Shown: in pieces, positions 10,261-54,380 of the stretch
Numbering within the stretch: the stretch's first letter is position 1
Layout: each line of letters opens with the position of its first letter
Origin: Onthophagus taurus
Lineage: Eukaryota; Arthropoda; Insecta; Coleoptera; Scarabaeidae
Length of the DNA stretch: 64,000 nt
Assembly: GCF_036711975.1 (NCBI RefSeq)
Contig: NC_091966.1
Location: 6,889,501-6,953,500 of the forward strand
Reading direction: 5' to 3'
Notes under the pieces: model-generated
What the model was told of the DNA's origin: nothing
The model's database searches: none
Seen by the model: the letters and a program-made list of their open reading frames with translations, nothing else
Translations under genes and position numbers: made by a program

Positions 10261-10689
10261 GAGTTTGTTATTAAACTTGTTTGTCACTGCAAATAGGAGT
10301 CAAAAATATCTCAAAAAAAACTTTAGTTAAAGTTAGCGACTTAAAAATTATCTTGAAGTTGTGTGTGAAGTTCTGCGACGTTAGATCTCAATTTTTATAG
10401 TATTTTGATCATAACAAGAGAAAGTCGCAACCGATTTGAATAAACAATATCTTATTCAAAAGCTCAATCCTTGGCCAATACGTTAATGGTGAAATGTCCA
10501 ATTGGAAATCTTTTTCAAATTTCCCTAAAACGCAAAAATATTACTAGCATATTTATGTAAGAAGCGTATATTAAAGTGACTTACACTGCTGTTTAAAAAA
10601 TCAAAAGAAAGAGGAGAAAGTATAAGATCTATCATGCTAATTGAAATTATACAGCAAAGAGACAATTTTTTATAGATGGAATTACATTT

Positions 10690-11320
10690 CTGCACGCTAA
10701 AGACATCAAAATTATATCTTCAGGCAACCTGATAATCACAATCCGAGGTAAATATGACACAATCATAACTCAACGAATGCAGAAAGCCCTAGTACTTACC
10801 AGCACTTGGTGCAGAAGCAATTGGCTCAGCATCAATCCAAACAAAATCGAAATAGTCCTTTTCACTTGGAGAAGGAAGCCACAATTGAGAGCAGCCTCCA
10901 TTGAAAGTAGCATTTTCAACCTCAAAACAGAAATTAAATACCTAGGGGTGAAACCAGACAGTAAATTAAATTGGAACTCCCACATAGACAAGGTGAGGAA
11001 AAAGGCCATTATGGCTAACCAGATCTGCCGCAGGCTCCTTGGAAGTAACTGGGATCCTAAACCACGAATGGCGCAACGTAGCAATAATCATACCCATGGT
11101 CGCCTATGCCTCACTGGTCTGGTGGCCAAAAGCAAATCATAAGGCAGCACAACAACCGCTGGCACAAATTCAGAGGTTAGCATGTCTTAATATAACGAGT
11201 GCAATGAGATCTTGTCCGACGGCTGCTCTTGAAGCCCTAGTCGGTCTCACACCACTTCATTTATATATACAACAGGAGGCAGCTTATGCATTAATTTATC
11301 ATCAAATGTATTGAAAGTGT
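10690..11320 (+). mobile_element. Jockey-like LINE fragment (RT thumb and C-terminal part, frameshifted)
   Basis: The plus-strand frame at about 10720-11090 carries the post-catalytic RT region: 'RGKYDTII', 'WCRSNWLSINPNKIEIV' and 'IKYLGVKPDSKLNWNSHI'. It continues in another frame from about 11060 to 11312 with 'MVAYASLVWWPKA', 'LACLNITSAMRSCPTAALE' and 'LTPLHLYIQQEA'. The YADD block upstream is degenerate. At least one frameshift separates the halves and the 5' part of the element is missing. It is a dead 5'-truncated copy. Confidence 0.75.
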
Positions 11321-15330: not shown

Positions 15331-15558
15331 ATGAATACACATCTAAATGTGAAAATAAGTGCTAACTGTAAACATCACCATATCATTTGGTATTTACCAA
15401 CATCCTATCATCATCAACATCAAGTGGTGATTTTCATTTTTAACCCGAAACGATGGAGACAAAAATTGAAGAACTCAGCAAAAGATTCAAAACTTCAGTA
15501 TCTGTCCAAGAAGGATCCAAAATCGTGCCAAAACAAGAAATTCTTGAAGTCAATTTAG
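15331..15558 (+). other. Overlapping upstream ORF in the leader of the GID8-like gene
   Basis: An ATG at 15331, just downstream of the predicted start site, opens a 75-codon frame in a different phase that runs 106 nt past the main start at 15453. Its context is weak (T at -3), whereas the main ATG has A at -3 and G at +4. The uORF product has no recognised domain. Its likely role, if any, is to limit translation of the main ORF. Confidence 0.45.
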
Positions 15559-16091
15559 AAGATATTTCTGAATTCAATAATAATTTGTGGATACAAATTC
15601 CTGAAGAAGAATTACACACGAGTATAAACACTTTAATAATGGATTATTTAACCACCGAAGGATTTTTGGGAGCAGCCGAAAAACTCGAAGAATCCGGCAT
15701 ACTTCACAACACCGGAAGCAATCAATTGATTAAACGAATCACTATCGTCGATGCCATCGTTAACGGCAGAAGCCATGACGCATTGGAAGCAATAAATTTC
15801 GCATATCCTCATCTATTGGAAAATGATCAATATCTACATTTTCATTTACAACAACTCCACTTAATTGAACTGATACGCAAGGACAAACTAGAAGAGGCTT
15901 TAGAATTTGCACAGAACCATTTGATTAGAGCGGTAGAGCAAAATCCGTTCATAATGAACGAACTGGAGAGAACCATGGCTTTGTTCGCTTTCAACGATCC
16001 CGTACACAGTCCGTTTGGCGATTTGATGCAACCACAATATAGGCAGAACATTGCGAACGAAGCTAATACTGCCATGTTGAATCAAAATTAA
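15453..16091 (+). CDS. GID8-like LisH-CTLH-CRA protein, intronless, heat-shock-type promoter
   Basis: The 212-residue product matches GID8 (TWA1/C20orf11), the scaffold subunit of the CTLH/GID E3 ubiquitin ligase. LisH spans about residues 55-87 (INTLIMDYLTTEGFLGAAEK), CTLH about 93-150 (YLHFHLQQLHLIELIR), and CRA about 146-210 (ERTMALFAF, SPFGDLM). Residues 1-50 are novel. The protein ends at NEANTAMLNQN, about 45 residues short of the usual C-terminus, so the CRA domain is truncated. The whole ORF lies in one exon behind heat-shock elements and a TATA box. Poly(A) signal AATAAA is at 16216-16221. I infer a diverged retrocopy or paralogue of GID8 that has become stress-inducible. Whether it still joins the ligase is unknown; loss of the C-terminus could make it a partial or competing subunit. 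Confidence 0.88.
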   Translation: METKIEELSKRFKTSVSVQEGSKIVPKQEILEVNLEDISEFNNNLWIQIPEEELHTSINTLIMDYLTTEGFLGAAEKLEESGILHNTGSNQLIKRITIVDAIVNGRSHDALEAINFAYPHLLENDQYLHFHLQQLHLIELIRKDKLEEALEFAQNHLIRAVEQNPFIMNELERTMALFAFNDPVHSPFGDLMQPQYRQNIANEANTAMLNQN

Positions 16092-19178: not shown

Positions 19179-21028
19179 TTAATTTGGTTTCTCAATAATC
19201 CTAAAAAGAGGTTTCATTAAATGTATGCCATAATCTATAGATGGATAATTACCTGTTCTTGATCTTGTTATCCTTATATTTTCACTAGGATCATTATTTA
19301 CAACTACAATTTTTTTTACTTTCTTAGTAACTTTTTTACGAGATTGTTTCTTAGTCAACATTTTTAATTGTTCCTCTTCGAAACGTTGTCTTTCTAACAT
19401 TTTTGTGTACACAGCCATCATTATAGGTGTATATCCAGGGATATTATTAGATCTAAAGAAATTTAAATAAAGTTTAGAAAACGAAATAATCGAAATGTTG
19501 GAACTTACTCGAATTCACAGTATCTCGGCGATGATCCAGATTGCAACCTCTCCATGAATTTGTTATAAACCTCAACCATAGCGTATGTAGGATTAAGTTC
19601 GTCTAAATCAATATCTTGTAAATTCAAAACTGCGTCACTAGATTCGGTAATTGTTCGATAACGATGTTTTCCTTGTCTCAGAATCATTTCAGGATCCATG
19701 AGTACTTTCGACCAACTTAAATTAGCAATTTCTTTGCCTTTTCGTCGCCGTTTTGGTTTTAATGGTAAATTTGAAGGTTTCGTTGACAAAGGAATTCGGT
19801 TTAATTTGTAACTTAATTTATGTTTCACTCCAAGTATTTGTCTTTTCTTTAGGTTTGCCAAACTTACTTGGTTATTATAACCATAACTTTCCAAGGCACT
19901 TTTAAAAATACCTCTACAATAAGAGTAGTCAGGTTCAGTATTAAAATCTAATTGAACCAAGTATTTAAAATAGTCATAAATAAACTGTGGATATGTAGTC
20001 AAAAAACAAGATTCTAAAAATTTGTGAAGATCAGATAAACTTCTTTGTTTCATTTTATGGACGATTACAGGGTCTTCGATTTCGTTCATCCAGGGTAAAG
20101 TCGATGTTAACCAATAGACAATGTTATAACCTAAGGATTCTAAATCTGAACGTCTAACTTGTACGCCATTATGAGCATCTAAGCTACAAAATAATAGTGT
20201 TCCAGCGTGAGCTTTTCTCTGATCACAAGAAACGTTTTTATGTCGACCATCGGGTTGAAGATATTTCGACACTAAACCCAGATCCAATAAGTAAACTTGA
20301 TTATTATTCACAATTTCATATAAATTTTCTGTTTCATCATCAATTTCCGCCGATCTTAAAAAATGAGTTCGATTTACTTGCTTCTTTCTAAGAGATATTG
20401 CTCCAGCCTTTCGTCTTTTATATCCCGTGATATGAGGATATTTAATCATAATATTTGTTGCTTTTATATCACCATGAATATATCCATTTGCATGTATATA
20501 CTCGATCACATTTAACAATTCTAACGCCACAATCAATACAGTATTAAAATTAAACGATTTATTCGTATTAAAAATATCCTCTAAATTCTTATCAAATCGT
20601 GGAAGTATTAAAAAACGTAATTTCGACCCTCTAACCATATGCGAACCGGATGCTACGTAATGAGGCATTCCCAATTTTCGCAATCCCGTCGTTTTTTTGT
20701 ACTCATTAATATATTCTTCTTTGGCGATACGTATATAACAATTAATTTCTACAAAAAGTGGCCCGCTGGAATGCGTTTCAACCTTGGCCACGTATTTACA
20801 ATTATCGTTTACGTCATTTTTTATATCATCCGACGCTAGAAATATTGCACCGAAACCCCCTATACCAACGGTTCTTCCTAACTTCCATTGCTTACCGGTT
20901 ATATCGGTTAATATTTGACCAGTTCGGATGTCGATTGTTGATGGTGGTGTTGTATTTGACGATTTCTTTTTAGGACGAATATCTTCACTAGATGGTGTTG
21001 CTCGTTTAGGCATTTTCGCCGAAACCAT
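19179..21028 (-). CDS. VRK-family Ser/Thr kinase (ballchen/NHK-1-like), two exons
   Basis: Exon 1 is 21028-19509 and exon 2 is 19452-19179. The 56-bp phase-2 intron has donor GA|GTAAGT, and the protein is 597 residues. Visible motifs are the glycine loop GIGGFGAIFLA (55-65), catalytic Lys in VAKVE (82), VRK-type catalytic loop HGDIKATN (185-192), DLG (249-251) in place of DFG/DYG, HAGTLLFCSLDAHNGV (274-289) and RRSDLESLGY (292-301). VRKs phosphorylate nucleosomal histones and BAF on chromatin. The N-terminus (KRATP, RPKKK) and the exon 2 tail (KKQSRKKVTKKVKK) are basic, fitting a nuclear protein. Unlike usual VRKs, about 40 extra residues (198-242) lie between the catalytic loop and DLG. M6 has a better start context (A at -3) than M1. 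It is either the ball orthologue or a divergent paralogue. Confidence 0.88.
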
Positions 21029-21860
21029 ACGAAAATTTGTTTATGGTGAATTTTAACCTATAAACAAAAATAATTGTAATTAAGTATAGAAAGAAATGTA
21101 TGCTTAATAAGCATTCCTTTGTATTGAAAATGAGGTTGGAAATTATTGATTTTGCATGATAATGTAAAATTAGGGCATTGCGCTAAATGGATGGCTTAGA
21201 TACTCTAGGCCAAACTGACAAGAATTATTTGCACATCAGTTTGCGTTGTGGGGATTTTACTAACGTAAGGACCTTGCAAATTTTCAAAAATAAGTTCTGC
21301 CGTAATCATCCAAAAGAATGAGACTGGTAGTCCAAATTCTGCAATGGTATCATTGCTCTAAAAGATCAAATGATACACAAGAACCATTTAGTAATATCAA
21401 TTTTTATTGATTTTGGGTAATAGAGAGAACCAGAAATAAGAGTAACATAATCACAAAAACGAATACCAATGTGCATTACTATTTGAATTCAAAGGCACAG
21501 TTAAATCATTCTTCTTCCTTGAAAACTACGACTGAGTATTCGGTGATATTGGGCACAACATTGGCAGAAATTCAAAAGTAGGCATCAAGCGGCAGCTTTA
21601 ATTCAACTTGCGCGATTTAATTATTTCAGAACTTGGATTCATTTAACATAAATTAGAATACCTCTCGTATCTGTGACAAAATCAAAGAACCCTTTCCGAT
21701 AAAGCACATCTTCTGTTTCTATTTCTGCATTATTTTATACTCATAAAGCTTTATATAAATCGTGCAAAACTTTTATTTTCGAGATCTACCTAAATCCACA
21801 AGGCCTGTTAAGAGTTAAAAACTTACACTTTGACGAAGTCTAAGCAATGATGAGTCTTAA
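21029..21860. other. Upstream of the VRK gene, no further gene recognised
   Basis: AT-rich intergenic sequence. It should hold the minus-strand VRK promoter directly upstream of 21028, but no TATA box stands out. Confidence 0.4.
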
Positions 21861-25019: not shown

Positions 25020-26890
25020 CCATAAAGCCATTCTTATCGTTAGTTTATTAGTCTGGTGTGAATAATTTTGTTCACCACTGTATAAATGTTTCTTATTGTT
25101 TTGGCTTACAACTGTCAAAATGATTCTGCGTAGAATTTTTTATTCTCTTTCTGTTACCGTAAATGTAAATTAAAATCTCCTTTTTCATTTCACCAATATT
25201 TATTTATTTTTCAATTTTCAAATAACGTACTGTGAGTTTTTAAAACTTTTATTTTTAAAGCTAATAACAAATCAGCGCCATCTATCATTAATTTTTCTAG
25301 TTATTTCATGTCAACATCATGTAAAATTGTTAGGTTATGTTGGATAAAAACAATAATTTGTAAAAATTAAGAAATACTTTTTTGAGAAATTAAAAATAAA
25401 TATCTTTTTTTAGAAAATGAACCATTGGAAATGTTATTGGTAAAATAGTTGGCAGAAGTAGTCAGATCTAAGAGTTTGTACTTATACTTAACAGGAATCA
25501 TCAAGAGAAATATTTTTGAGAATTCAGAAACATTTAAATGCTTTGAAGAGATGTTTAGAAAATCAAAACGAATTGAAAAATAATTTGCTGTTATAGAAAT
25601 AATAAAATAAAGCTGTTTTAGATGGAGTAAAAGATGTGATCAGTTGGAACCTGATACGATTTTGATTAAACCTTTAATACGATTTTGAAGCATATTAACT
25701 TTCTTTGTGTAAATTTACATATTTAAATACGAAGCATATGTAAATTATTTCAAATAGAAGCTGGTAAGGTTGAATAATTGATAAAAAAAAGTGTGATCTA
25801 ATATGGTAATTCCTTTTTAGTGTTAATTTTACATGATGCCCTGAACAAGGGGTCCTTAAGGTTCACATTTAATGAAAATTTGGATTCACTAATATTTATT
25901 TTGCTTTTTAGGGTCTAGATACTAACCAGAAAGAGATAATTAAATTACTAAAATAAAGTATTGCTTGATTTGTTGCTGATTTCCTAAAAAACTTGGTATA
26001 ACTCAAATAAAAAAAACACGATTATCTGATGCACCAGTCTCTAATTATTTATCAATTTATTAATGACAATAAAGATAAAGTAATGGCAATATATCGCAAT
26101 AAGATGATTTGAATAAATAATCATCAGTAGTAATCATTTATGATAAGGCTTTTACTCAATTTCTTTAATTTCAATTTAAATAATTAAATGTATAACACAT
26201 AAACAACATACAATACTTACTGTAGTAAATAAGCAGCTAAACCAAAATTTTTTTTTTTTTTTGAAGATAATATCACAAAAGTTTTGCAAAATTATCAGAA
26301 GATTAATACAAATGCTCCTAAAACAATAAATAAACCTTAAAATTCAGAAAAGTTAAGTTAAAGCCTAATTCCCGCGTAAATAAACGAAATGAGGTTATGT
26401 TTTCTAAAATAACTCACCAATTGATAAATTAATGTTCACAATATGCACACGAAGCTCTCATCGAATAAATTAATAAGTTTTAAGCTTCCAATAGGTATTC
26501 TCGGCCATCTTAACGTCTATTCTGTATTGCCATAACAGAATCAACATAACCTATCACAAATTTCTTCGATATACCGTACTCGTGGTTTAAGAGGACCTGC
26601 TATTATAAGAAAAATTTAACGGTTACCAATCGGTTTATATTGAGCGCTCTATATCCCGGCAACTCCCTTACTTTTAAATGGATGTAACCACAGCGCATGC
26701 GCGAACTTTCACATTGAAATTTATATTATTTTTAAATTTACATTTATATTTTTCACAATTTTCCTGTAAACATTTTCAGTTTTAAATGTATGTTCTTATT
26801 TTATAATTTTTGCAATAATAAATTAAAAAAGCGATTCGATTTTCGGTTTAGACCTTTAAAAGCCCTGACGTCTATTTGACGTACACATGG
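25020..26890. other. AT-rich intergenic DNA upstream of B9D2
   Basis: No gene recognised. AACATAACCT or its complement occurs several times (about 25332, 26391 and 26537), a motif often found near insect promoters. On the minus strand an ATGGCCGAG with good context at about 26509 opens only 12 codons and has no donor, so I do not call a gene. Confidence 0.4.
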
Positions 26891-26893
26891 TGT

Positions 26894-26906
26894 GTTGCTA
26901 GGTAAC
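26894..26906 (+). promoter_or_regulatory. RFX X-box upstream of B9D2-Tectonic
   Basis: GTTGCTAGGTAAC consists of two imperfectly inverted RFX half-sites, GTTGCT and GGTAAC, with a 1-bp spacer. It matches the X-box consensus of ciliary genes (GTNRCC-N(1-3)-RGYAAC) with one mismatch. It lies 90 bp upstream of the B9D2 ATG and about 43 bp upstream of a TCAGT initiator (26949-26953). RFX control of transition-zone genes is known in flies and worms. Use of this site is inferred. Confidence 0.75.
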
Positions 26907-26948
26907 AAGTTTGTTTGTAAACAAATCCCTTTAATTATTTTATGACAA

Positions 26949-26953
26949 TCAGT
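26949..26953 (+). promoter_or_regulatory. Candidate initiator of the B9D2-Tectonic unit
   Basis: TCAGT, the arthropod initiator core, sits 44 bp before the B9D2 ATG with no TATA box upstream. Confidence 0.35.
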
Positions 26954-26996
26954 AGGTGACACTGAAAAGTATCACTTCCGGTTGTGTTTCTATGTG

Positions 26997-27613
26997 ATGG
27001 CAGAAGTTCATATTGTTGGTGAAATATCGCACGCAAAAGAATTTCCAAAACAAGAACTTTTCTGCCGTTGGAAATTACATTGTGGTAAGAAAAATAAATT
27101 CAAATTTTTAACTAAATTTTAAATAAACTTTAATTTTATTGATTTTTTCGTATTTCCCTAATATTTCCAGGTAATAATTGGAAAGTGATTTCTGGCAAAC
27201 AAGAAGGTCAAACTCAGGTGATAAGTTCAGAATTTGATGATAAATGTAAATGGGCTTATCCTCTTGATATACATTTAACAACAACTGGAATTCCAGGTTG
27301 GCCTAAAATTTACGTTCAAGTTTATCATTTGGATTGGTTAAATAGAAGTCATTTGTACGGATACGGTTTCGTTTGTATCCCTACAAGTCCTGGGTCGCAC
27401 GTGCTAAATTGTTACACGTGGCGACCGTTAGGATCGATACGCGAACGATTCATACAATATTTTCTCGGTGGTGGTCCTCAATTAAAATACCCCGACTTGA
27501 TTTTATCGTCAAACGATCGTTATAAATTAAATACCGAGGCTATGGGAGTAGTTTCTTTTGAAGTTAATATTGTTTTAAGAAATTTTAATAAATTTGGAGT
27601 TGAATACGAATAA
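26997..27613 (+). CDS. B9D2: B9 domain-containing protein 2 (ciliary transition zone)
   Basis: Exons 26997-27084 and 27171-27613 (86-bp phase-1 intron, donor G|GTAAGA, acceptor CCAG) give 176 residues, the usual B9D2 length. The start MAEVHIVGEI matches the family N-terminus. Other B9D2 blocks are LFCRWKLHCG, WKVISGKQEGQTQV, GIPGWPKIYVQVYHLD, GYGFVCIPTSPG, TWRPLGSIRE, GGGPQLKYPD and LLRNF-like VLRNFNKFGVE. B9D2 forms the B9 module with B9D1 and MKS1 at the base of cilia, helping gate membrane proteins. The ATG follows an in-frame-independent ATGTGA minicistron at 26992. The stop lies 7 bp before the best Tectonic ATG, leaving no room for a separate 3' UTR or promoter. Confidence 0.95.
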
Positions 27614-27620
27614 TTTAAAT

Positions 27621-30600
27621 ATGGAGAAAATTGTTTTCTTCGGATTCGTGCTTTTTGGCATCGTATTTAAAGTATTTTCCGGAACAAGTACTACAAATAC
27701 TGAAAGTACAACTGAAATCATTACTTCAGAAATAACGAATGATTATGAAAATGATAACGTAACTTTAGAATTTGGTATAGATGATAATAGCACTTGTGAT
27801 GAAAATTGTACCACTTTAACAACAGTTAAAACGGGTTCATCGCCGACTAAAGCACCAACTACTATTAAACCAAACGTTAAAGTACCAAAGATTTCTTTAT
27901 CGTCGTCAACTAAAACTTGCTTTTGCAATATTCAGGTTTGTTAAAAAAAATTTGAAGAAGCATCAATAAATATGATTATTTTTAGGAGAAAGTTTGTGAT
28001 ATAAACTGTTGTTGCGATAAAGATTGTAATTATGATATGAGGCAAGTTTTTGGGAAATGTGACGATGATCTTAATAGAGTTTACGACACCTCCTTTTGTG
28101 AATATACTAAGTATATTTACAAAAATAACACGCCGTTTGAATGGACTGTCAATCAAAATGGATTTTTTTGCGTGGCTAAGACTAATTTACCACGACAGTA
28201 TTATATTCATAAAGACATTGTAATTATTTCTATGTGAGTTGATTCAAAAGTAGATGGCAAAATCATGAGTTCATTTTAAGATAAAGTAATTAATGCTATT
28301 TTGGTATCAACATAAAATGAGTTTCCAATAATATTTCCAAAATCATGCAAAAATAATCTCGAAACTAACTGAGTGGTTTAAGAGTGGTTCTGTAACAAAA
28401 ATGCAATACAGAAAATTTTTAGTCATTAAGTATAGAATCTAATCATTTTCGTCATGCGCACTGTGAATGGAATAATCATTGAACGAGGTGTTCAAGGACG
28501 CTGGAAGGTTTTTGAAATAAGTGTGATGGGTTGGAGGAGTTTTTTTACTGTAAATTGAACCAGTTAACAGGCTACCCATTTATGTTTTTCCTGTTAGTTA
28601 AAAAGTTTCCCAAACTTTTGATACATAGAAATTCATAACTAGATATTGAAAACGTTTTGAAATGTGACTTCTTCCTTACCGATTTTATGATCTGAATCCA
28701 GCACTTTGGCGCCACATTTAACATCACTCGCCATGAATGAATGTCCAGACACTGAGAATTTGAAATCTATTCTGGTGAGGAGTCTGGACAAGTTTTAGAA
28801 TACATTTTAATGCATTCTACAAAATAAAATAGTGTGCGTTTTGTTTTCTCTTAAGTAGTGGTAAAAGTGAAAAAAGTGAAACCATTGAAGCACTGAATAC
28901 TGTAATTCTATGCATCCAAATTTGAAAGAAGTGCAAAGAAAAATGCAAATGTAAATTTCAGTAGAGGTTGAGTTATAGACTGTAAGGATAGTCCTTGCTT
29001 GTTCTGAGCAGGCTACATGGAGTTACTCTTGCACGTTTATGGCCTTTCTTTTCCTTAGATCCTGTTCACTCTTATTGTATGCATGAAATTATGACATAAC
29101 ATACAAGTATCTATAGAAGGATAACAATATTTGTTTCTTAACAAGCTGTTTTTGTTCCTGCATATTTTTCAAGATTGATCAAAGATCATACATTTTTTGT
29201 TTGATGTTACATTGGCTTTGAAATAGAAACGTCCTCTTTTTTGTCCTCTTTTAATCACATCTACAAACTCCAACCATTTAATTTGCAATATTCCTATGAA
29301 ATATGTTTTGCATACTTTCGTATTGTTCTCACCTTGTTCCACTGTAAGTTTGTTACCATATTTTGAATTGGGATCCCATTGATTTCGAGCATACAAAGAA
29401 CATATTTTGGAATAATCTGCCAAATTTACTTTGGCAGTGGCAGTTTAAATATCTTTTCATTCCTTAAAATATTATTTGTAGTGGTAAAAGATTTATAAGT
29501 GTTTCTATTTTGCTTCCGTTTATTCTGTGTCTAAATGTCTTCATTGGTTGTCCTTATCCTACCAAATTGTTGTTTTAAATCTTAATCTTGGTCTGGAATT
29601 AGGATTAGATATTTATTATGCACAGTAATATAGCATAATGTGTGGTTTCAATTGACATAAACCTTTCGATAATTTGTGGTCTTGACAATGGTTTTCAATT
29701 GGTCTGGGCCAAAAAGTATTTGATGAAGTTGGCAATTATAAAATTATAAAATTTTGTCACCTACTCTTGAATCACATTTTTTTAAAAAGCTTTTGTCTAT
29801 ACATAAAATCTTTTAGACATTAAATAATCTTAAAGAAGCATCACTAGCAAAACAAAATAAATTTGATTGGGCAGAAAAAGATTCATCAACAACTCCAGAA
29901 ATAGATCCGCAACAAGGTTTTATGTATGGAAAACCTGCTTATTTGGTAAAAAATAATTTAATTATTCCTTGGGGTATGCAATCTGAGTGAATCATTTTTA
30001 AATTGTTGTTTACATTTGTCGTTTTTAGTAATTCCAGACACTTTACATACAGATTCTTGCTCAACCACAAAAACAATAAATTTACTTGAAGATGTAGAAA
30101 CAAAATGTACTCAATATGAAATAAACAATAATAACAAAAAGCTGGATCTTCATAGTTATATTGAAAATATTACAGTATTAACTTCATCATCTGACTCGAA
30201 ATATTTTAATCAAAAAAGACTGACTTTATTGCAGGTAAGAAACAGAAATGTCTAAAATAATTTGTTCTTAACTTTATTACTTTTTAACAGCATTGTCCAA
30301 AGGAAATTTGCAAAAACTTCGATGTCTTATTATGCAACGAATTTTTACAAAACTGTTCAAAACTAAGTCAAAACGTTTCCAAAGCACATCATTGCCAAGG
30401 ATATTCTTTTAATTTTTCTTGTAAAAATTTATTACAAAAACTGCAATATAATATTTACCATAATGGAACACAGGGAATTAAAAAAGTTGACCTATTAGTT
30501 CATTTAATGAACTTATCTTACCCTTCAATCCATACTGTCATTCAACACTTTAAAGTCAAATTCTTCTGGGTAAACCAAAACATAAACATTACTTCTCAAC

Positions 30601-31442
30601 GTAGCGGAAACCCTGGATACATTTTTAAAAAACCCATCATCACAGCGAATTTAGTACAACACAAATTTGTAATTTCAAAAAAACCGTTAAATATTTCAAC
30701 AAACGCAACGATTGAGAGAAATCATTCAAAAATCAACGAAATTGTTTTGACACTCCCCAAAAATCAAAACGGAAAATGTATTTTAACGAACCATATTAAT
30801 AATCAAATTCAATTTGGAATAAATAATTTAATAAATTGCGAACTCCGCGAATTAATAACAACAAAAAATAAAAAACTAAATAAAGATTTATGCCTAAACG
30901 TGCAAGAATTAATTTCGACTTTCTGGTCTATTGAATTGAATAATTCAACGAATAAATTATTTGGCAAATACGGAAACGCAAACATTACCAATATAAAAGA
31001 TTGGAGTAATGTTTCGTATACTTTAACTCCTGAAAATATGCTAAAACGTGTAAATAGCGTGCCATCGGGTAATAAATCTCGTTTAAACTGCATCAACCTC
31101 TGCACCAAGTTAAAAATAGACGTTTTTCATGCGCGATCAATCGTTGAAGACCTTCACGATCAAGTACAAATCGTTTGGATCACGTACTCATTTGGTAATT
31201 GTAGGAATTACACTTTTCTAATCGAGGACGATCAAATTTCAATTAACATCCGATTACGTTTCGAGGTAATGTTTTATGATATTACTACAGAAAAATTAAA
31301 AAAATATGTTGAACCACCTTCCTTGAAAATTAGCTTACCCTACGATTTCTTTTATCCATTTGTTAAAATCGATAATGGGGGTAATTTAATTAAAAACTCA
31401 ATTGTATTAATTATTACTTTGGTGTTAATTTTAATCAATTAA
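27621..31442 (+). CDS. tctn: Tectonic, ciliary transition-zone protein (five exons)
   Basis: Exons: 27621-27935, 27986-28219, 29817-29973, 30029-30234 and 30291-31442, giving 687 residues. The signal peptide is MEKIVFFGFVLFGIVFKVFS, followed by a Thr/Ser-rich linker. The tectonic cysteine block CFCNIQ-EKVCDINCCCDKDC (about 100-119) spans the first intron. RSGNPGYIFKKP (about 408-419) matches the conserved GNPGY segment. The C-terminus is a short hydrophobic tail (SIVLIITLVLILIN), either a membrane anchor or a lipid-anchor signal. Tectonics are secreted or membrane parts of the MKS complex that also contains B9D2. The exon 2 donor (ATT|GTAATT) is weak but keeps the frame. An in-frame ATG at 27594 inside B9D2 would add nine residues before the signal peptide. 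The 1.6-kb intron 2 holds repeat debris. Confidence 0.9.
28220..29816. other. Tectonic intron 2 with decayed minus-strand transposon-like ORF
   Basis: On the minus strand, broken frames between about 29425 and 28680 contain a GHSFMASD...CGAK stretch that resembles the 'GHSFLPCDRDFG' motif of proteins spread by insect transposons. Stops and shifts interrupt it. The family is uncertain. The other Tectonic introns are only 50-57 bp, so insertion probably enlarged this one. Confidence 0.35.
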
Positions 31443-31576
31443 GTTTAAAAGATAAAATAAAACTTTGTGTAGAACGAAAAAATGTTTATTAAATAAATAA
31501 ATTGTAAATTGATTTTATAAAAAGAATCTTCTTCGATCGCCTTTTTCCTTACCATTTTTTTAGGCCATACCGTGCC
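31428..31576 (-). pseudogene. Duplicated RPF1 3' end next to the Tectonic stop
   Basis: GATAAAATAAAACTTTGTGTA (31451) through TTTTATAAAAAGAATCTTC (31513) and CCATACCGTGCC (31565) closely matches the true RPF1 3' end and its flank at 34780-34888. On the minus strand it keeps the last codons (RRRFFL-stop equivalent), with an insertion of about 25 bp after the region matching HGMETS. It is a non-coding remnant. Confidence 0.7.
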
Positions 31577-31679: not shown

Positions 31680-32335
31680 AGAGGTGAAATATCTTGGTGT
31701 TATCTTGGACAAAGGACTGACTTGAAAATCACAAATTAGTTGCAAAACCAAAAAAGCAACGATTGTTACTCACCCAGTGTCGAAGGGCAGTTGAGAATAC
31801 TTGGGGATTAAATACGAGGGTTACAATGTGGATCTACACGTCTGTCATGTGGAGCTCACGGAGCTATAGTTTGGGGCTAAGCACTGAAACATGCCTATAA
31901 AGCTAAATTGCTGCATCAATTGCAACGAGTGGCCTGATATTTTTATCAGGGAGGTGGCCATGATGGCATTGCTTCGAACTCTGGAGTGAGGCTGTTCGTA
32001 AACAACTCCTCCTTGAAGCTTGCACAGATTACATAACACCTACTTTCTTAAACACGCCACACTTTGGCATTGAAACGATACCCCAAAGCAACTTAAGCAC
32101 GGGCAAAACGCAGACCATCTACACTGATGGATCAAAGAACGCTGGGAGGCTCCGGAGTTCGAATTTTCTCGCACGATCTCGCGCTATACCTTTCCACTTC
32201 GCTAGGGACTATAGCAGCCAATGTAATCATCGACTCCGAAAAAGTTGGAAGAAACGTTGTAATCTGCACAGATAGCAAACAGGCTACGCTGGCGGTTAGC
32301 AGGCATCGAACTACATCATCGTTAGCAATTTAAAA
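31680..32335 (+). mobile_element. Jockey-type LINE fragment: RT C-terminus and RNase H-like region
   Basis: Frames contain EVKYLGVILDKGLT at about 31682, a degenerate 'YGAIVWW' equivalent at about 31860, and an RNase H start IYTDGSKNAG at about 32119 followed by VVICTDSKQA (about 32257). At least three frame breaks and stops occur. It is related to, but distinct from, the fragment at 10690-11320. Confidence 0.65.
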
Positions 32336-32344
32336 AAATTTTAT

Positions 32345-34595
32345 ATTTATCGGAAATTGTCCTATGCTACCCCCAATACTTTCTGGAAAACCATCCGTTC
32401 TCTTGGTGTAGTTAAATCTCCTTCTTACCATGGTAGTTTTGATTGTGATTCTCTGACTAGTTATTTTGCCGAATCTCCTATCACTCTCGACTATTCAATT
32501 AAGGTATCAACAATTCTCCCCATTAATGCCTCCGCTAAAATCAATTCCAAATTTTCCTTGGAGTTGTTCGACGAATTCCAAGTCCGCCAGGCACTCAGAC
32601 ATTCTCGGTTCAGTAGTGTTGGTGCTGATGGTGTTCGCATTAAGCAGCTCCTTCCTATATTGGATATAATCATTCCTCCACTACTCCACATATTTAACTT
32701 CTCCATTGAGACATCGTCCTTCGCTTCTATTTGGAAACTAGCTTATGTTGTACCCATACCTAAACTTAAGTGCCCTACTCGTCTAAGTGATTTTCGTCCT
32801 ATTTCTATTATTTCTGTAATTTCTAAAGCAATTGAGCGCTTGGTGTATATGCAGGCACAGCGGTATTTTGATGAGCAATCTGTGCTCACTGATTTTCAAT
32901 CTGGTTTCTGTTCCAATCATACCTTTCTAATCGTTCCTTGTGTGTACGTGACTCCTTATCTTCCTCATCTGTATTTATAAGCCGTTGCGGTGTGCAGTGA
33001 TATTGGGTCCACTTCTCTTTTCTTTCTTCATAAATTGCATTACTAAGATAATTAAGTGCAACTTTCAGCTATATGCAGACGACCTCCAAACTTATACATC
33101 TGCAACTGTGGATGAACTTCCAGCAGCGCTAATGCGGCTTAATAGGGATCTTGCTAGTGTTATAGACTGGTCTAGATGCTATGGCTTGAGTTTGAATATA
33201 GCAAAGACTCGAGCTATTGCTTTGGGCCTTTGCTAGCAAAATTTTACTCGATCAATAATACCCATCTGACACTTGATGGTAACTTCATACAATTCTCTCA
33301 AACAGTTAAAAACTTGGGAGTAATGATAGGTTTTGCATTGTCCTGGCAGCCCCAGATTCAGTCGGTCTGTAGGAAGATTTATTTCTGATTTTATTCCCTA
33401 CGCAAACTTGGTTTTTTTCTTCCACCTATTGTTCGTCGCAACCTATGTTACTCTTTAATTCTCCCCCATTTGGACTATATTGATGCCGTGTACCCAAACC
33501 TCTCGATTAGTTTCCATAACAAATTAAAGAGGTTACAAAATAATTATATTTTCTATATTTCTAATGGATCTGATGATGGCGTAAGCCGAAACCGGTTAGA
33601 CAATAAATTGAAAAAGACCAGAAAAAGTATTGCTTTTTATTGAATTTATATTATATAAAAAATAACTGGTCAACATGGATCAAACTCCCTCATCTAATTA
33701 CAAAATAATTGTCTGCGCTTTATTTTTGACCTGAGAAAGTATGACCATGGTACACCATACCGTAATCATCTCGAGATGCTCATCGTTGAGAAGCGTAGAT
33801 TCTTTCGCATATTAACTATCAACATACAATCATTGAAAATCTTAAAAGTTTCCAAGTTGTATATTTCAAAGAAGACTTCAACAAGATATCAACTGTGCTA
33901 TATTTTTGGAAAGGAAATTTTATGCTCTCGTCCAATTTGTAAAAATATATAGGGCGTTCCATTAAAAAAATCATTTTTATGTCAATAACTAGTAAAATAT
34001 TGCTTTGCGGGAAAGCTAACTTATACCATCGAATTTCATCACTTTTTTGAAAAATATCCTGTATCTCTGAAATCGTAAAAGATATCGATATTCGGTTTTC
34101 GCCATTAAGTTTCTTATAAAAATCGAGCCTCAGACACTGATATCATTTTTCCTTTATCTCTTATAGAAATAGGAGTTTCCCGTTAAAAGTGCCTAATTTG
34201 GCCCACCTGTACATACCTGTACACATATAACACTGTGGAATAATTTACCCATAAAATTGCGTAATGCTCGTAGCTTTTCCATATTCAAAGGTTCGCTAAG
34301 ATATCACCTGTTGTCTCTACAGTTATCTGAGGCTGATTTTTGATGTCTGCTTTATCTGGTTCTTCTCTTTTCCATCTTCAGCTGACAGCTTTATTTGCTC
34401 TTTTCCAATCATTTTTTGCTTAATCCGATTTTCTTTATTCCTTGTTCTCTCCTATTCTTTTTCTGTTACTTGACGCCTCTGGCGATAAATTGACCTTTTG
34501 TCAACCATGTATTAATGTTATAGAATAATGTATATTTTTCTGTTATTATTGTAAATCTTGGTGGCAATAAAGTTAAGTATTATTATTATTAAGTG
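32345..34595 (+). mobile_element. CR1/L2-like LINE, RT to 3' end, with two insertions
   Basis: The RT frame 32357-32980 contains LRHSRFSSVGADGVRIKQL, FASIWKLAYVVPIPK, DFRPISIISVISKAIERL and DFQSGF. It resumes at 32985 with GPLLFSFFINCI, LYADDLQTY (catalytic DD intact) and LSLNIAKTRAI. Further pieces are LRKLGFFLPPIVRRNL and LILPHLDYIDAVYP (about 33400-33490), CLRFIFDLRKYDHGTPYRNHL (about 33713-33775, split by an insertion at about 33566-33690), and TLWNNLPIKLRNARSFSIFK (about 34230-34290), ending at a stop near 34341. A second repeat insertion lies at about 33950-34215. The 3' end is an (ATT)n run at about 34577-34592. Catalytic parts lie in different frames, so it is dead. Confidence 0.75.
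33950..34215. repeat. Repeat fragment inserted in the LINE
   Basis: It begins with AGGGCGTTCCATTAAAAAA, shared with the repeat at about 13459, and ends near CCACCTGTACATACCTGTAC. It interrupts the LINE reading frame between the 'RRFFRIL' and 'TLWNNLP' segments. ATCCTGTATCTCTGA inside resembles the CCTGTATCTCGG of the fold-back at 13788-14451. Confidence 0.5.
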
Positions 34596-34888: not shown

Positions 34889-35928
34889 TTTTCCCCTGAA
34901 TAATCCAATGATATTGTCCATATTTACTATCAAATGTACCTTTTTGTAAAGATTTTAATTTTAAAGTAAACCTTGGACCTAATTCTTTTAAACTGGTTTT
35001 TTTCCCATCTTCATTAAATGTATACCTGAAATAACACATAATAAAAATATAATTTATCCTTAAAATAAAATAATTTTACTTGTAATGTCTAAAAAAGACA
35101 TAATCCCTTTGATTATGAAAAGCAACAGCTCGTCTTCCAACAAATTCAGCATCATAATGAAATAAGGCCCCTAACATTCTACCAATAGTGTGCCCTAATC
35201 TTGTTGAAAAATTATTAATAATAACTTCTGGTCGATGTATAGTAATATCTTTATGACTTTTCTTTAAATCTTTAGTTATTTTAACATTGCTTAATCGAAA
35301 ATGAGCTGTTGGGCCATCAGGTAAATGAATTAAAAGTAAACCATCCGGTTCTTTTTTATGTTCATTAATAATCAAAATGTCTGTATAATTCTCTCTTAAC
35401 GCACTTTTAACAATTTTCTTCACCCCAGAACGATTTCTATACCTCGAAATCGAATTAGGAATAATTCTCGTTAATTCACGCCCAAATATTCTTGTCTTTT
35501 GCATGGGATTATCGCAAAATGTGATTAAAACTTTCGGTTCATATGAGTGTTTATAATAATCGCTAAATTCGTCATTTTCTAAATCAACACGGACTACTTC
35601 ATTGGAATCATCGTTTAAATCACCAACTACAGTTTCATCTTTTTCTCGTAAACTTTCTAAAGTGTGAGGGATTCCTTTTGGTGCTCCTTCTTCTTTGCGT
35701 TGTTTTTTAATTGCTTTCTTTTCCTAAATTAAAATAAAATAATAATTTGGTAAAATAATTTAAACATAACCTTACTTTGCTTGCTTCCTTTTTCATCTTT
35801 TGAAATCGAACGTTTCGAACCATTTTATTCCGAATATGTCCATATTTATTATTGTTGGGAAATAAAACATCTCCACTCGTAGAAGGTTTAATATCTTTAA
35901 CTTCCTCTTCTTTGATATTTTCATCCAT
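34848..35928 (-). CDS. RPF1: Ribosome production factor 1 (Brix-domain protein, three exons)
   Basis: Exons on the minus strand are 35928-35776, 35723-35080 and 35025-34848, giving 324 residues. The introns are 52 and 54 bp, phases 0 and 2. A charged N-terminus ([15 protein letters not shown], then [12 protein letters not shown]) precedes the Brix domain: [92 protein letters not shown], ending [13 protein letters not shown]1 acts in the nucleolus in 60S subunit assembly (27S pre-rRNA processing). It converges on Tectonic. Its 3' end and junction exist twice, here (34757-34888) as the functional copy and at 31428-31576 as a remnant. AATAAA signals lie downstream on the minus strand near 34810-34850. 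Confidence 0.95.
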
Positions 35929-43560: not shown

Positions 43561-43599
43561 CTAATTAAAGAAACCCTTAGCTTACTTAAAAAGATACTG

Positions 43600-44037
43600 A
43601 TTGCCGATTTGAAGGATGATGCGTTGTCTAACAATATACATAAACTCTTTCAAATATGTATTAAACAGAATTTCTTCTCCTTTAATAAAAAGATCTATAA
43701 ATTCAAAGAAGGATTACCTATGGGTTCTCCACTGAGCTGTTTAATGTCAGATATTTTTCTTAACTCAATCGAGAATAATTTTATGTTAAACGATAATAAG
43801 AACCCATATAATACGCACATTGTCACATGTTGTAGATATGTTGATGACATTTTTGTTATTCTGGATACAGATGATTCAACAGTAATCAATGGACTTCATC
43901 TTTATTTAAACACAATACATGACAACCTAAGATTCACAGTTGAAACTGAACAGAATAATAGTATTAACTTCCTCGACCTTACAATCTCACCGAATAGTAC
44001 GAAGTTTCTTTACTATTTCCTTGTACGCAAGTGGTGA
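43600..44037 (+). mobile_element. Penelope-like element RT fragment
   Basis: The open frame encodes the central RT of Penelope-like elements: FKEGLPMGSPLSCLMSDIFL, CCRYVDDIFVIL (catalytic YVDD intact), LNTIHDNLRFTVETE and NNSINFLDLTI. The frame then stops. The GIY-YIG endonuclease and N-terminal parts are absent nearby, so it is a fragment. Confidence 0.85.
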
Positions 44038-51700: not shown

Positions 51701-54380
51701 AACGGTTGAGCTGTCTGATGTTGGCTTAAAATAACTTTGTGTTCCAGCTTTCTTCGATTGCGGTAAATGTGTTGGGGTCGAATCTGCCACAGTGACAGAA
51801 AGTTGAATAAAATGTCAATGAGATATTTCTACATAATTTCATCAACCTAGCCATAATGGTCCAGACCACCATATACTCCTTTTCGAGTAGTATATTTATT
51901 TGCATGAAGAGCCGAATTTTCAGGATTGCATCATTTCTGATTTTGTTGCTTCGCCTTCCATATAAATCTTACATTTCTCTTTGTGCACTAGGGATCAATT
52001 AATTCAGGCTAGAGCACCATCTATATATTCCACAGATGAATGGGATGATTTTGTATCACTTAGTTTTCAACAAGTCATCTGGGACATTAACATAATCCTT
52101 GATATTTCCATTATTTTATAAATAAAGTTCATGTTATCTATAATATATTGGCTTCATTATTTTCATTTAACTTCGTGTTTTTAATTCTTTATATTTCATC
52201 TTGTTCTACAATATACAGTATAAGAAACGTGAAGTTTTCAATTCGTATCTGGAGTTCTTATTTGTCATATACACACACAACTATTGATTACGAAGACATG
52301 GCAATAAGCCAGGGCGTTTTGCCAAAATTGCTATCGGTATCTTTTTGTAGTAAGTATATCAAAAAAATTATTTCCCATTTTTGAAAAAATTATAACATAA
52401 TTGTTAAAGATTGGACACTTTATTTATCTTCGACTAGCCGACTATAAATGTTTACATTAACAATTACCCTTAATTCTAGTACAATTTTAGCTGTCAATAC
52501 ATTAGGGCGCCCTCGCAAGACATAACCAGGTTAACGTAACGATGGCGAGCAATGATTAATTTCCCCATTTTTCCCACCTCGGCAGCGTCAACTAACGAAT
52601 TTTTAATGTTTCTCACCAGGTCCCCTTTGTCGTTACCGTGGCCCTTGTCATGGTTTTTTATGATCACGACGACGTTCCGCCATTTGTAATTATGGGGGCG
52701 AGATATTCTTGACCGTATATGCGGAGGTGGAGAGAAAGATTGGCCGGTGATAAGGTCCCGTGGTTTCCAAATGCTTTTTACGTAGACACCGCGCCGCACC
52801 GTCGCCGCTACGTTCAATGTACTCCTCCAGCACCCGGTCGGTTTCGTTACGAACGGTGTACGGAAGAAGAAGAACGAACGAAGAAATAATGTATTGGGGG
52901 TGTACAATCTTGTGATGGTGTGCTGTATAGCGGGCGGATGTCGTCCTGCGGTTGCAGCTGCCGTTCTGTCGCGTCTTGTTGAGCACCACTTGCAATTTGC
53001 CGTGTTTGAAATTTTAGATGTTTGGGGAACGCAAACGTAGCCTAAATATTTGGAAGAACGGAAGAAGAAATCTAACAAATTATCTTAAGTTGTTTTTATG
53101 ATTCATATACAGTTCGCATGGGAACATCCTTTGACAATTGTCCACTTATTGTCCTGGATCAGTACAGAGCACACCTACGAAATGATTGTGCGGTGCATGG
53201 TACAGGGTTGACTCATGAAAAAACTACCAAGATTATACTCTTAAAGCGTTAATAAGGATGGAACATATCACGTGCAATTTCGTACGCCGGCTTTCAATTA
53301 GTCACATTGTTGAATAGTGGATAATTGCTCTCCTTGAGTAACGCCTATTTGTGTCAAAACTGGAACGACCCAGTATTTGTTTGTAAAAATATTTGTTCTT
53401 ACAATTAGTCGTTTAACCAAAAACATGAGAGTCACGAGAAGATAAGAGAAGTTATGAAAAGTGAAAAGAAGATTCTTCTTTCGTCTCGTTTTTTAACACT
53501 TGGGTCGCTACCGTAAGGTGAAACTGCAACATTTGCCAGATATTGACCGTGGCGGGATATCTGGATCACCTGCCCTCTCCGATGGTTAGTACCATATGGG
53601 ATTCGGGTTTTGTCCATCGATCCCTCTATTAACGATGCTAACGTGAATGGACGGCGAAATGGGGCGGACAACGGCGGCGTTGGAGTTTATTCTAGAAGAC
53701 ACGGTGCGCTCATTCGGCTGGTCGGCATAATCCGCATTAAGAAGAGACCCTCTATCCCGTATTATATTATTACGGTATTAGTGCGGTAATTTGTCACACG
53801 AGCCCATTGGTTCCCTACCCAATTGGCAATTTGTGTCACTCAAACGAATGGCCTCCGTTTGGGGATTGACCGACGTCCGATACGGCATTGTTATGTATTT
53901 ATACGATACAAACAGATTTCCTAAGAGATTTTATCCACCGGGAATTGTCGTGTGACATTGAAATTGGGTTATTTTCGTTTACTCAGAACCAATAGTATAA
54001 AGATAAAAATGATATCGTTATTTCCCATCAATTGGAAGTATTTGTAGTATATTTCTAGAGCTATTACAATTTGTTTCACAATTTTAAACAATATAGAAAA
54101 TTATAGAACGTATAAATGTAGTAAATGCGATAATGCGGTTATTTCAAAAGAAGGAGGGTTTATAACACCCCTTAATATTGAGAAACGAAGAACGTGACCA
54201 CCCAACTAAAGTCCAAGATTCTATTGCTTTGTTATGGGTGTTCAATCAATACCCATATTTTTCTAATTCCTTAAAGTATTTCCTTCATTCTTCCCACAAA
54301 CTTGTAGACCACCATGAATTTCGTTATTCACTCCAAATCCTTTTTATCTAATGACGTTTATCATTGCACAAAACGTTGCA
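45770..54380. other. Gene desert with scattered GC-richer blocks
   Basis: No exon with protein similarity was found. CpG-richer islands occur at about 46590-47040, 47330-47600, 48960-49260, 52500-53000 and 53440-53960. The 194-codon minus-strand frame at 52494-53078 overlaps another long frame and lacks domain character. These blocks are better read as promoter or regulatory DNA of genes whose exons lie elsewhere. Confidence 0.4.

Follow-up and report, generated by a model that had tools for sequence, protein, structure and literature searches.

In a 64,000-nucleotide (nt) stretch of the Onthophagus taurus genome (NC_091966.1, positions 6,889,501 to 6,953,500; hereafter the window, numbered from its first base), the genes for B9D2 and Tectonic, two proteins of the ciliary transition zone, follow each other on one strand with 7 nt between their reading frames. 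We propose that they form a dicistronic ciliary pair, with one RFX-driven mRNA from which Tectonic would be read mainly by leaky scanning, and we put the probability of this at about one half. The 7-base gap, together with what is apparently one cilia-type switch, means that both proteins probably come from one message, and a shared transcript is the best reading of three things taken together: the gap, the lone exact X-box upstream, and the literature on the Drosophila gene CG9227. The same three support the single transcript proposed in the initial annotation of this DNA, although an overlapping Tectonic start codon that it cited is wrong and a possible poly(A) signal of B9D2 was overlooked.

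In the mechanism we infer, an RFX factor would bind the X-box at 26894–26906 and drive one pre-mRNA beginning at about 26950, which would be spliced to an mRNA with B9D2 first and Tectonic second and polyadenylated after Tectonic. B9D2 would be translated from its moderately good start codon, and Tectonic would be reached mainly by ribosomes that pass that codon, a route favoured by the small number of out-of-frame start codons in B9D2 that could compete. Such a shared-message arrangement is unusual. If the proposal is correct, this small locus is a clear animal example of one message carrying two proteins of one cell structure, and it ties together RFX control, subunit ratio, and the selection of start codons.

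Gene structures of B9D2 and Tectonic

The two genes and the spacer between them are composed as follows.

26997–27084, plus strand: B9D2 exon 1 (coding), with the ATG at 26997; the B9-C2 domain is found on the spliced protein
27085–27170, plus strand: B9D2 intron, 86 nt (GTAAGA...TTTCCAG)
27171–27613, plus strand: B9D2 exon 2 (coding), stop TAA at 27611–27613; depleted of out-of-frame ATGs
27614–27620, plus strand: spacer of 7 nt, TTTAAAT, separating the two reading frames
27621–27935, plus strand: Tectonic exon 1, with the ATG at 27621; hydrophobic N-terminus, signal-peptide-like by eye
27986–28219, plus strand: Tectonic exon 2, DUF1619_N domain
29817–29973, plus strand: Tectonic exon 3, picked for its open frame and GT-AG sites
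30029–30234, plus strand: Tectonic exon 4
30291–31442, plus strand: Tectonic exon 5, TCTN_DUF1619 domain; stop at 31440–31442
31456–31461, plus strand: AATAAA, likely poly(A) signal of the whole unit, 13 nt past the Tectonic stop

B9D2 has two exons and a product of 176 amino acids, and its intron of 86 bp (27085–27170) is as first annotated. The B9-C2 domain spans residues 4–164 (193.3 bits, E 4.3e-57, Pfam), and the protein is nearer to the human B9D2 sequence used for comparison (86/174 identities) than to the human B9D1 sequence used (47/166). No solved structure matches it at E 0.001. Relatives of B9D2 number zero in viral_contigs (4 pattern matches) and zero in genome_contigs (11 pattern matches); as these collections consist of viral, bacterial, and archaeal records, the null result is uninformative on insects.

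The Tectonic model encodes 687 amino acids without an internal stop and has GT-AG introns of 50, 1597, 55, and 56 nt. DUF1619_N is found on the full-length protein at 42.7 bits (cut-off 22), while TCTN_DUF1619 reaches 25.1 bits (cut-off 22) with the last-exon frame alone, no single stretch passing by itself, and is missing from the domain list that the profile search returns for the full-length protein. Further AATAAA hexamers lie downstream at 31492 and 31496.

The distance from the B9D2 stop (27611–27613) to the Tectonic ATG at 27621 is indeed 7 bp; the claimed earlier in-frame Tectonic ATG at 27594, however, is a TTG codon, and 27621 is the sole ATG within 27561–27640. Both frames are complete and on the same strand. 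In Drosophila, loci expressed solely as polycistronic mRNAs have gaps of −34 to 319 nt (Crosby et al., 2015; PMC4528330), a range that includes the 7 nt found here.

A putative RFX-dependent promoter

Three elements precede the B9D2 reading frame.

26894–26906, no strand: X-box, an RFX-binding-type palindrome GTTGCT A GGTAAC; site predicted from sequence
26949–26953, plus strand: initiator-like TCAGT, candidate transcription start at 26951 with a 46-nt leader; a weak call from the motif
26992–26997, plus strand: start-stop upstream open reading frame (ORF) ATGTGA, with T at −3; with the B9D2 ATG it gives ATGTGATGG at 26992–26999

The X-box ends 90 nt before the B9D2 ATG, and GTTGCYNRGYAAC has its single exact match in the 64-kb window here (26894–26906); the palindrome with spacers of 1–3 occurs at one site against 0.15 expected per 64 kb. 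Matches with two mismatches were discarded, as they number 16 in all against 16.9 expected, i.e., chance level. Searched with the restricted Drosophila consensus (Laurencon et al.), the window has 8 hits, which fall at 6 places, those near the locus being 26894 and a weaker one at 26399, also 5′ of B9D2, with none starting between 26907 and 40123. The loosest consensus from the same source gives 88 hits in the window, and those within 25800–28300 start at 25979, 26399, 26894, 27810, and 28046; a loose X-box is by itself no predictor of RFX control (Laurencon et al., 2007; PMC2375033). Neither the loose nor the restricted Drosophila consensus finds an X-box within B9D2. The candidate initiator is of a common type, with 45 copies of TCAGT on the plus strand of the window. 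The TGA of the upstream ORF shares bases with the B9D2 ATG, and this ORF may lower B9D2 initiation.

The signals at the locus are not all on one side: there is one exact X-box, yet an AATAAA hexamer (27587–27592, plus strand; it could serve as poly(A) signal of an mRNA with B9D2 alone) and initiator-like TCAKT motifs lie inside B9D2. The two could instead be packed genes with separate mRNAs, B9D2 being polyadenylated via AATAAA 27587 and Tectonic having its promoter within B9D2, which we regard as quite unlikely. The hexamer is followed, after 27621, by a T-rich stretch (27 T in 60 nt), two TCAKT motifs are available in B9D2 (27325 and 27349), and 45 of 159 dicistronic loci in Drosophila also make monocistronic mRNAs of both genes (Crosby et al., PMC4528330). 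Cleavage 10–30 nt past the hexamer, however, would fall in the region of the B9D2 stop and the Tectonic ATG and leave almost no 3′ untranslated region; B9D2 is without a match to the Drosophila X-box consensuses tried; and neither motif is rare in this AT-rich window, AATAAA being present in about 6% of 40-nt stretches and TCAKT occurring 176 times. The initial annotation had seen no room here for a poly(A) site, which is too strong given the hexamer, nor for a separate promoter, which is no proof since B9D2 coding DNA could house one.

In another arrangement, also with one promoter, the Tectonic mRNA would arise from a splice that removes the bulk of B9D2, such as one linking the donor at 27085 with the AG at 27578–27579. 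The Tectonic frame is open upstream as far as 27579. This splice would fuse the opening 29 B9D2 codons in frame to Tectonic without a stop, and some monocistronic forms in Drosophila do come from splices that break one frame (Crosby et al., PMC4528330). We nevertheless consider it very unlikely: the pyrimidine tract of the acceptor is poor and the site fell below the filter of the splice-site scan, the fusion would place an extension ahead of the signal-peptide-like Tectonic start, and about one joining in three is expected to be in frame by chance. The in-frame fit of this weak acceptor is possibly chance.

Start codons and leaky scanning

The B9D2 start (TGTG-ATG-G) and the Tectonic start (AAAT-ATG-G) share a purine at −3 and a G at +4, and the Tectonic context is the closer of the two to the fly consensus. 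Three of the four internal ATGs of B9D2 have T at −3. The fourth, at 27542, is in frame with G at −3 and +4 and opens a 23-codon ORF that ends at the B9D2 stop.

If ribosomes scan B9D2 to reach Tectonic, ATGs off the B9D2 frame should be avoided. B9D2 has three of these against 8.16 in synonymous-codon shuffles (P = 0.00015 in 20,000 shuffles, 0.0006 in 5,000), an observed-to-shuffled ratio of 0.37. Of the out-of-frame triplets scored in B9D2, z is lowest for ATG (−3.7) and highest for ACG (+3.2), and in Tectonic only one triplet scores below ATG (−2.6). When all ATGs are counted and codons are resampled by the usage of both genes, B9D2 has 5 vs 10.7 expected (P = 0.0008) and Tectonic 30 vs 37.1 (P = 0.02), and under a first-order Markov model the shortage in B9D2 is weaker (P = 0.04). 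Out-of-frame ATGs are few mostly because C replaces T in NAY codons before G: these codons end in C in 7 of 8 cases before G vs 3 of 24 before other bases (P = 0.00026), while at other NNY codons the corresponding counts, 5 of 20 vs 5 of 41, do not differ significantly (P = 0.18).

For comparison, frames elsewhere in the window were analysed in the same way, the last one listed being kept out of the control pool as a frame without a Pfam match.

15444–16088, plus strand: control frame, CTLH/LisH domain (Pfam)
19508–21040, minus strand: control frame, protein kinase domain (Pfam)
35079–35723, minus strand: Brix-domain exon (RPF1-like by eye), convergent with Tectonic, 76.2 bits
54396–55217, plus strand: control frame, Rost (rolling stone) domain (Pfam)
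52497–53084, minus strand: 196-codon open frame without a Pfam match, rich in C-ending codons

None of 49 control windows of equal length reaches the ratio of 0.37, and one of the 49 reaches P = 0.001; the ratio is 0.97 in the RPF1 exon and 1.07 in the Rost frame. Before G, the NAY codons of five pooled control genes end in C and T in proportions of 36:60, from which B9D2 differs at P = 0.008. Raw counts of out-of-frame ATGs were rejected as evidence by themselves: in windows of 528 nt from Tectonic (52) and the kinase frame (34) they drop to as few as 2, and a count is informative only when set against synonymous shuffles.

Several observations weigh against leaky scanning along a single message. 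The B9D2 start has G at −3 and +4 and is hence not weak at these positions, the ATG at 27542 with the same two bases could capture scanning ribosomes, and the hexamer at 27587–27592 makes a poly(A) site for B9D2 alone possible. Nor is the shortage confined to B9D2, since ratios are also below one in Tectonic (0.76, P = 0.005), the kinase frame (0.79, P = 0.03), and the CTLH frame (0.56, P = 0.08). C before G is also mildly favoured in the control pool (P = 0.008), and the kinase frame favours C before G at other NNY codons too (P = 0.011), which points to something other than ATG avoidance. The frame at 52497–53084 has 8 C:1 T before G vs 12:12 otherwise (P = 0.047), which counts against the specificity of the B9D2 signal. 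In sum, a general C-before-G/ATG bias is present and weak, and it is stronger in B9D2; coming from a single gene of a single species, this signal is suggestive without amounting to proof.

A shared mRNA could also yield Tectonic by termination–reinitiation or by an internal ribosome entry site (IRES), with leaky scanning in a lesser role, an alternative that we hold to be unlikely. The stop lies only 7 nt before the next start, the short ORF from ATG 27542 ends at that same stop, and in Drosophila most dicistronic pairs fail the requirements of scanning and IRES use may be common (Crosby et al., PMC4528330). The ATG depletion in B9D2, by contrast, is predicted by neither mechanism, and reinitiation is usually poor after a frame as long as 176 codons. 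The junction has no unusual RNA structure (z = 0.49; 136 of 200 shuffles fold equally well), and no Rfam family matches in the window at gathering score.

If Tectonic is reached by leaky scanning, the linkage of dosage suggested in the initial annotation would hold for transcription, which would be shared, while the protein ratio would depend on how strong the B9D2 start codon is. In the shared mRNA the B9D2 stop would lie 5′ of four introns, a position that could expose the message to nonsense-mediated decay and keep it scarce. The leaky-scanning signature is the new, testable part of the proposal and provides a cheap, specific prediction for other insect genomes; should the pair be kept across insects, knock-downs or knock-outs of one gene may hit both.

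Putative mobile-element remnants in the window

Just 3′ of Tectonic, at 32300–33643 on the plus strand, are frames resembling a broken LINE-type reverse transcriptase by eye, the first of which (32300–32980) has no match in a Pfam search. Reverse transcriptase fragments (PF00078) also occur on the plus strand at 10645–11139 (19.5 bits, below cut-off) and 43561–44034 (35.1 bits).

Comparison with known systems

The closest parallel is Drosophila CG9227. It is listed as tectonic, with nematode Y38F2AL.2 and human NP_085055 as homologues, and is cited as the Tectonic of mouse Shh signalling, yet it is counted among the B9-domain genes (Laurencon et al., 2007; PMC2375033). NP_085055.2 is human B9D2 (PMC4092220). 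CG9227 is most simply read as a single fly gene model that spanned both the B9D2 and the Tectonic frames. Presumably FlyBase later split it into CG42730 and CG42731, numbers that occur in none of the literature searched. Y38F2AL.2 is nematode mksr-2. CG9227 resembles the beetle locus in combining B9D2 homology with the name and cited role of Tectonic in one model, and also in its regulation: X-boxes lie 119 and 146 nt 5′ of the ATG in two fly species and its reporter is absent in dRfx mutants (PMC2375033). It differs in the letters of the X-box. The fly part of the argument draws on table entries and a name, and a naming mix-up or a borrowed name is possible.

CG9227 cDNA is hardly detectable (Laurencon et al., PMC2375033), which fits nonsense-mediated decay but also expression in few cells. 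Taken together, the CG9227 data fit an old shared B9D2–Tectonic arrangement, and the same arrangement is probably present in fruit flies. More tentatively, and as something we hold possible rather than probable, the pair could be a ciliary operon that predates the beetle–fly split, with an RFX promoter, selection for C over T in NAY codons before G keeping B9D2 transparent to scanning, and a protein ratio set by leaky scanning. In the literature searched, judged by its listings, no report describes the pair as dicistronic; the single paper in which B9D2 occurs together with the word 'cistronic' deals with live-cell imaging of cilia.

The two proteins are also partners in function. B9D2 and a Tectonic are in the core transition-zone set of most ciliated organisms examined (PMC4092220), and in flies without MKS1 both are lost from the transition zone (PMC5087661), so they belong to one module.

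For the mode of translation, the nearest likeness is to the bicistrons of green algae, whose first start is weak and is followed by few start codons before the second, and in which leaky scanning was tested by mutation (PMC11892635). As there, start codons are short before the second frame, and the first start may be weaker than the second at −4 to −2; unlike there, in another lineage and with mutational tests, leaky scanning is deduced here and the B9D2 start has retained a G at both −3 and +4. Translation of the second cistron of the dicistronic Drosophila stoned locus (stnA/stnB) is reportedly tied, by the title of a 2005 paper of Wall et al., to a lack of in-frame AUGs in the first, whereas B9D2 retains one internal in-frame Met codon.

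Drosophila has 159 dicistronic pairs (FlyBase release 6.04), of which 45 are expressed only from dicistronic mRNAs and a few are functionally related (Crosby et al., 2015; PMC4528330). Like these, B9D2 and Tectonic are two full-length proteins encoded on one strand with a short gap; unlike these, which are backed by cDNA or RNA-seq, the beetle pair is known from its DNA. Given the 159 annotated pairs, B9D2–Tectonic is probably one more case of an established gene arrangement.

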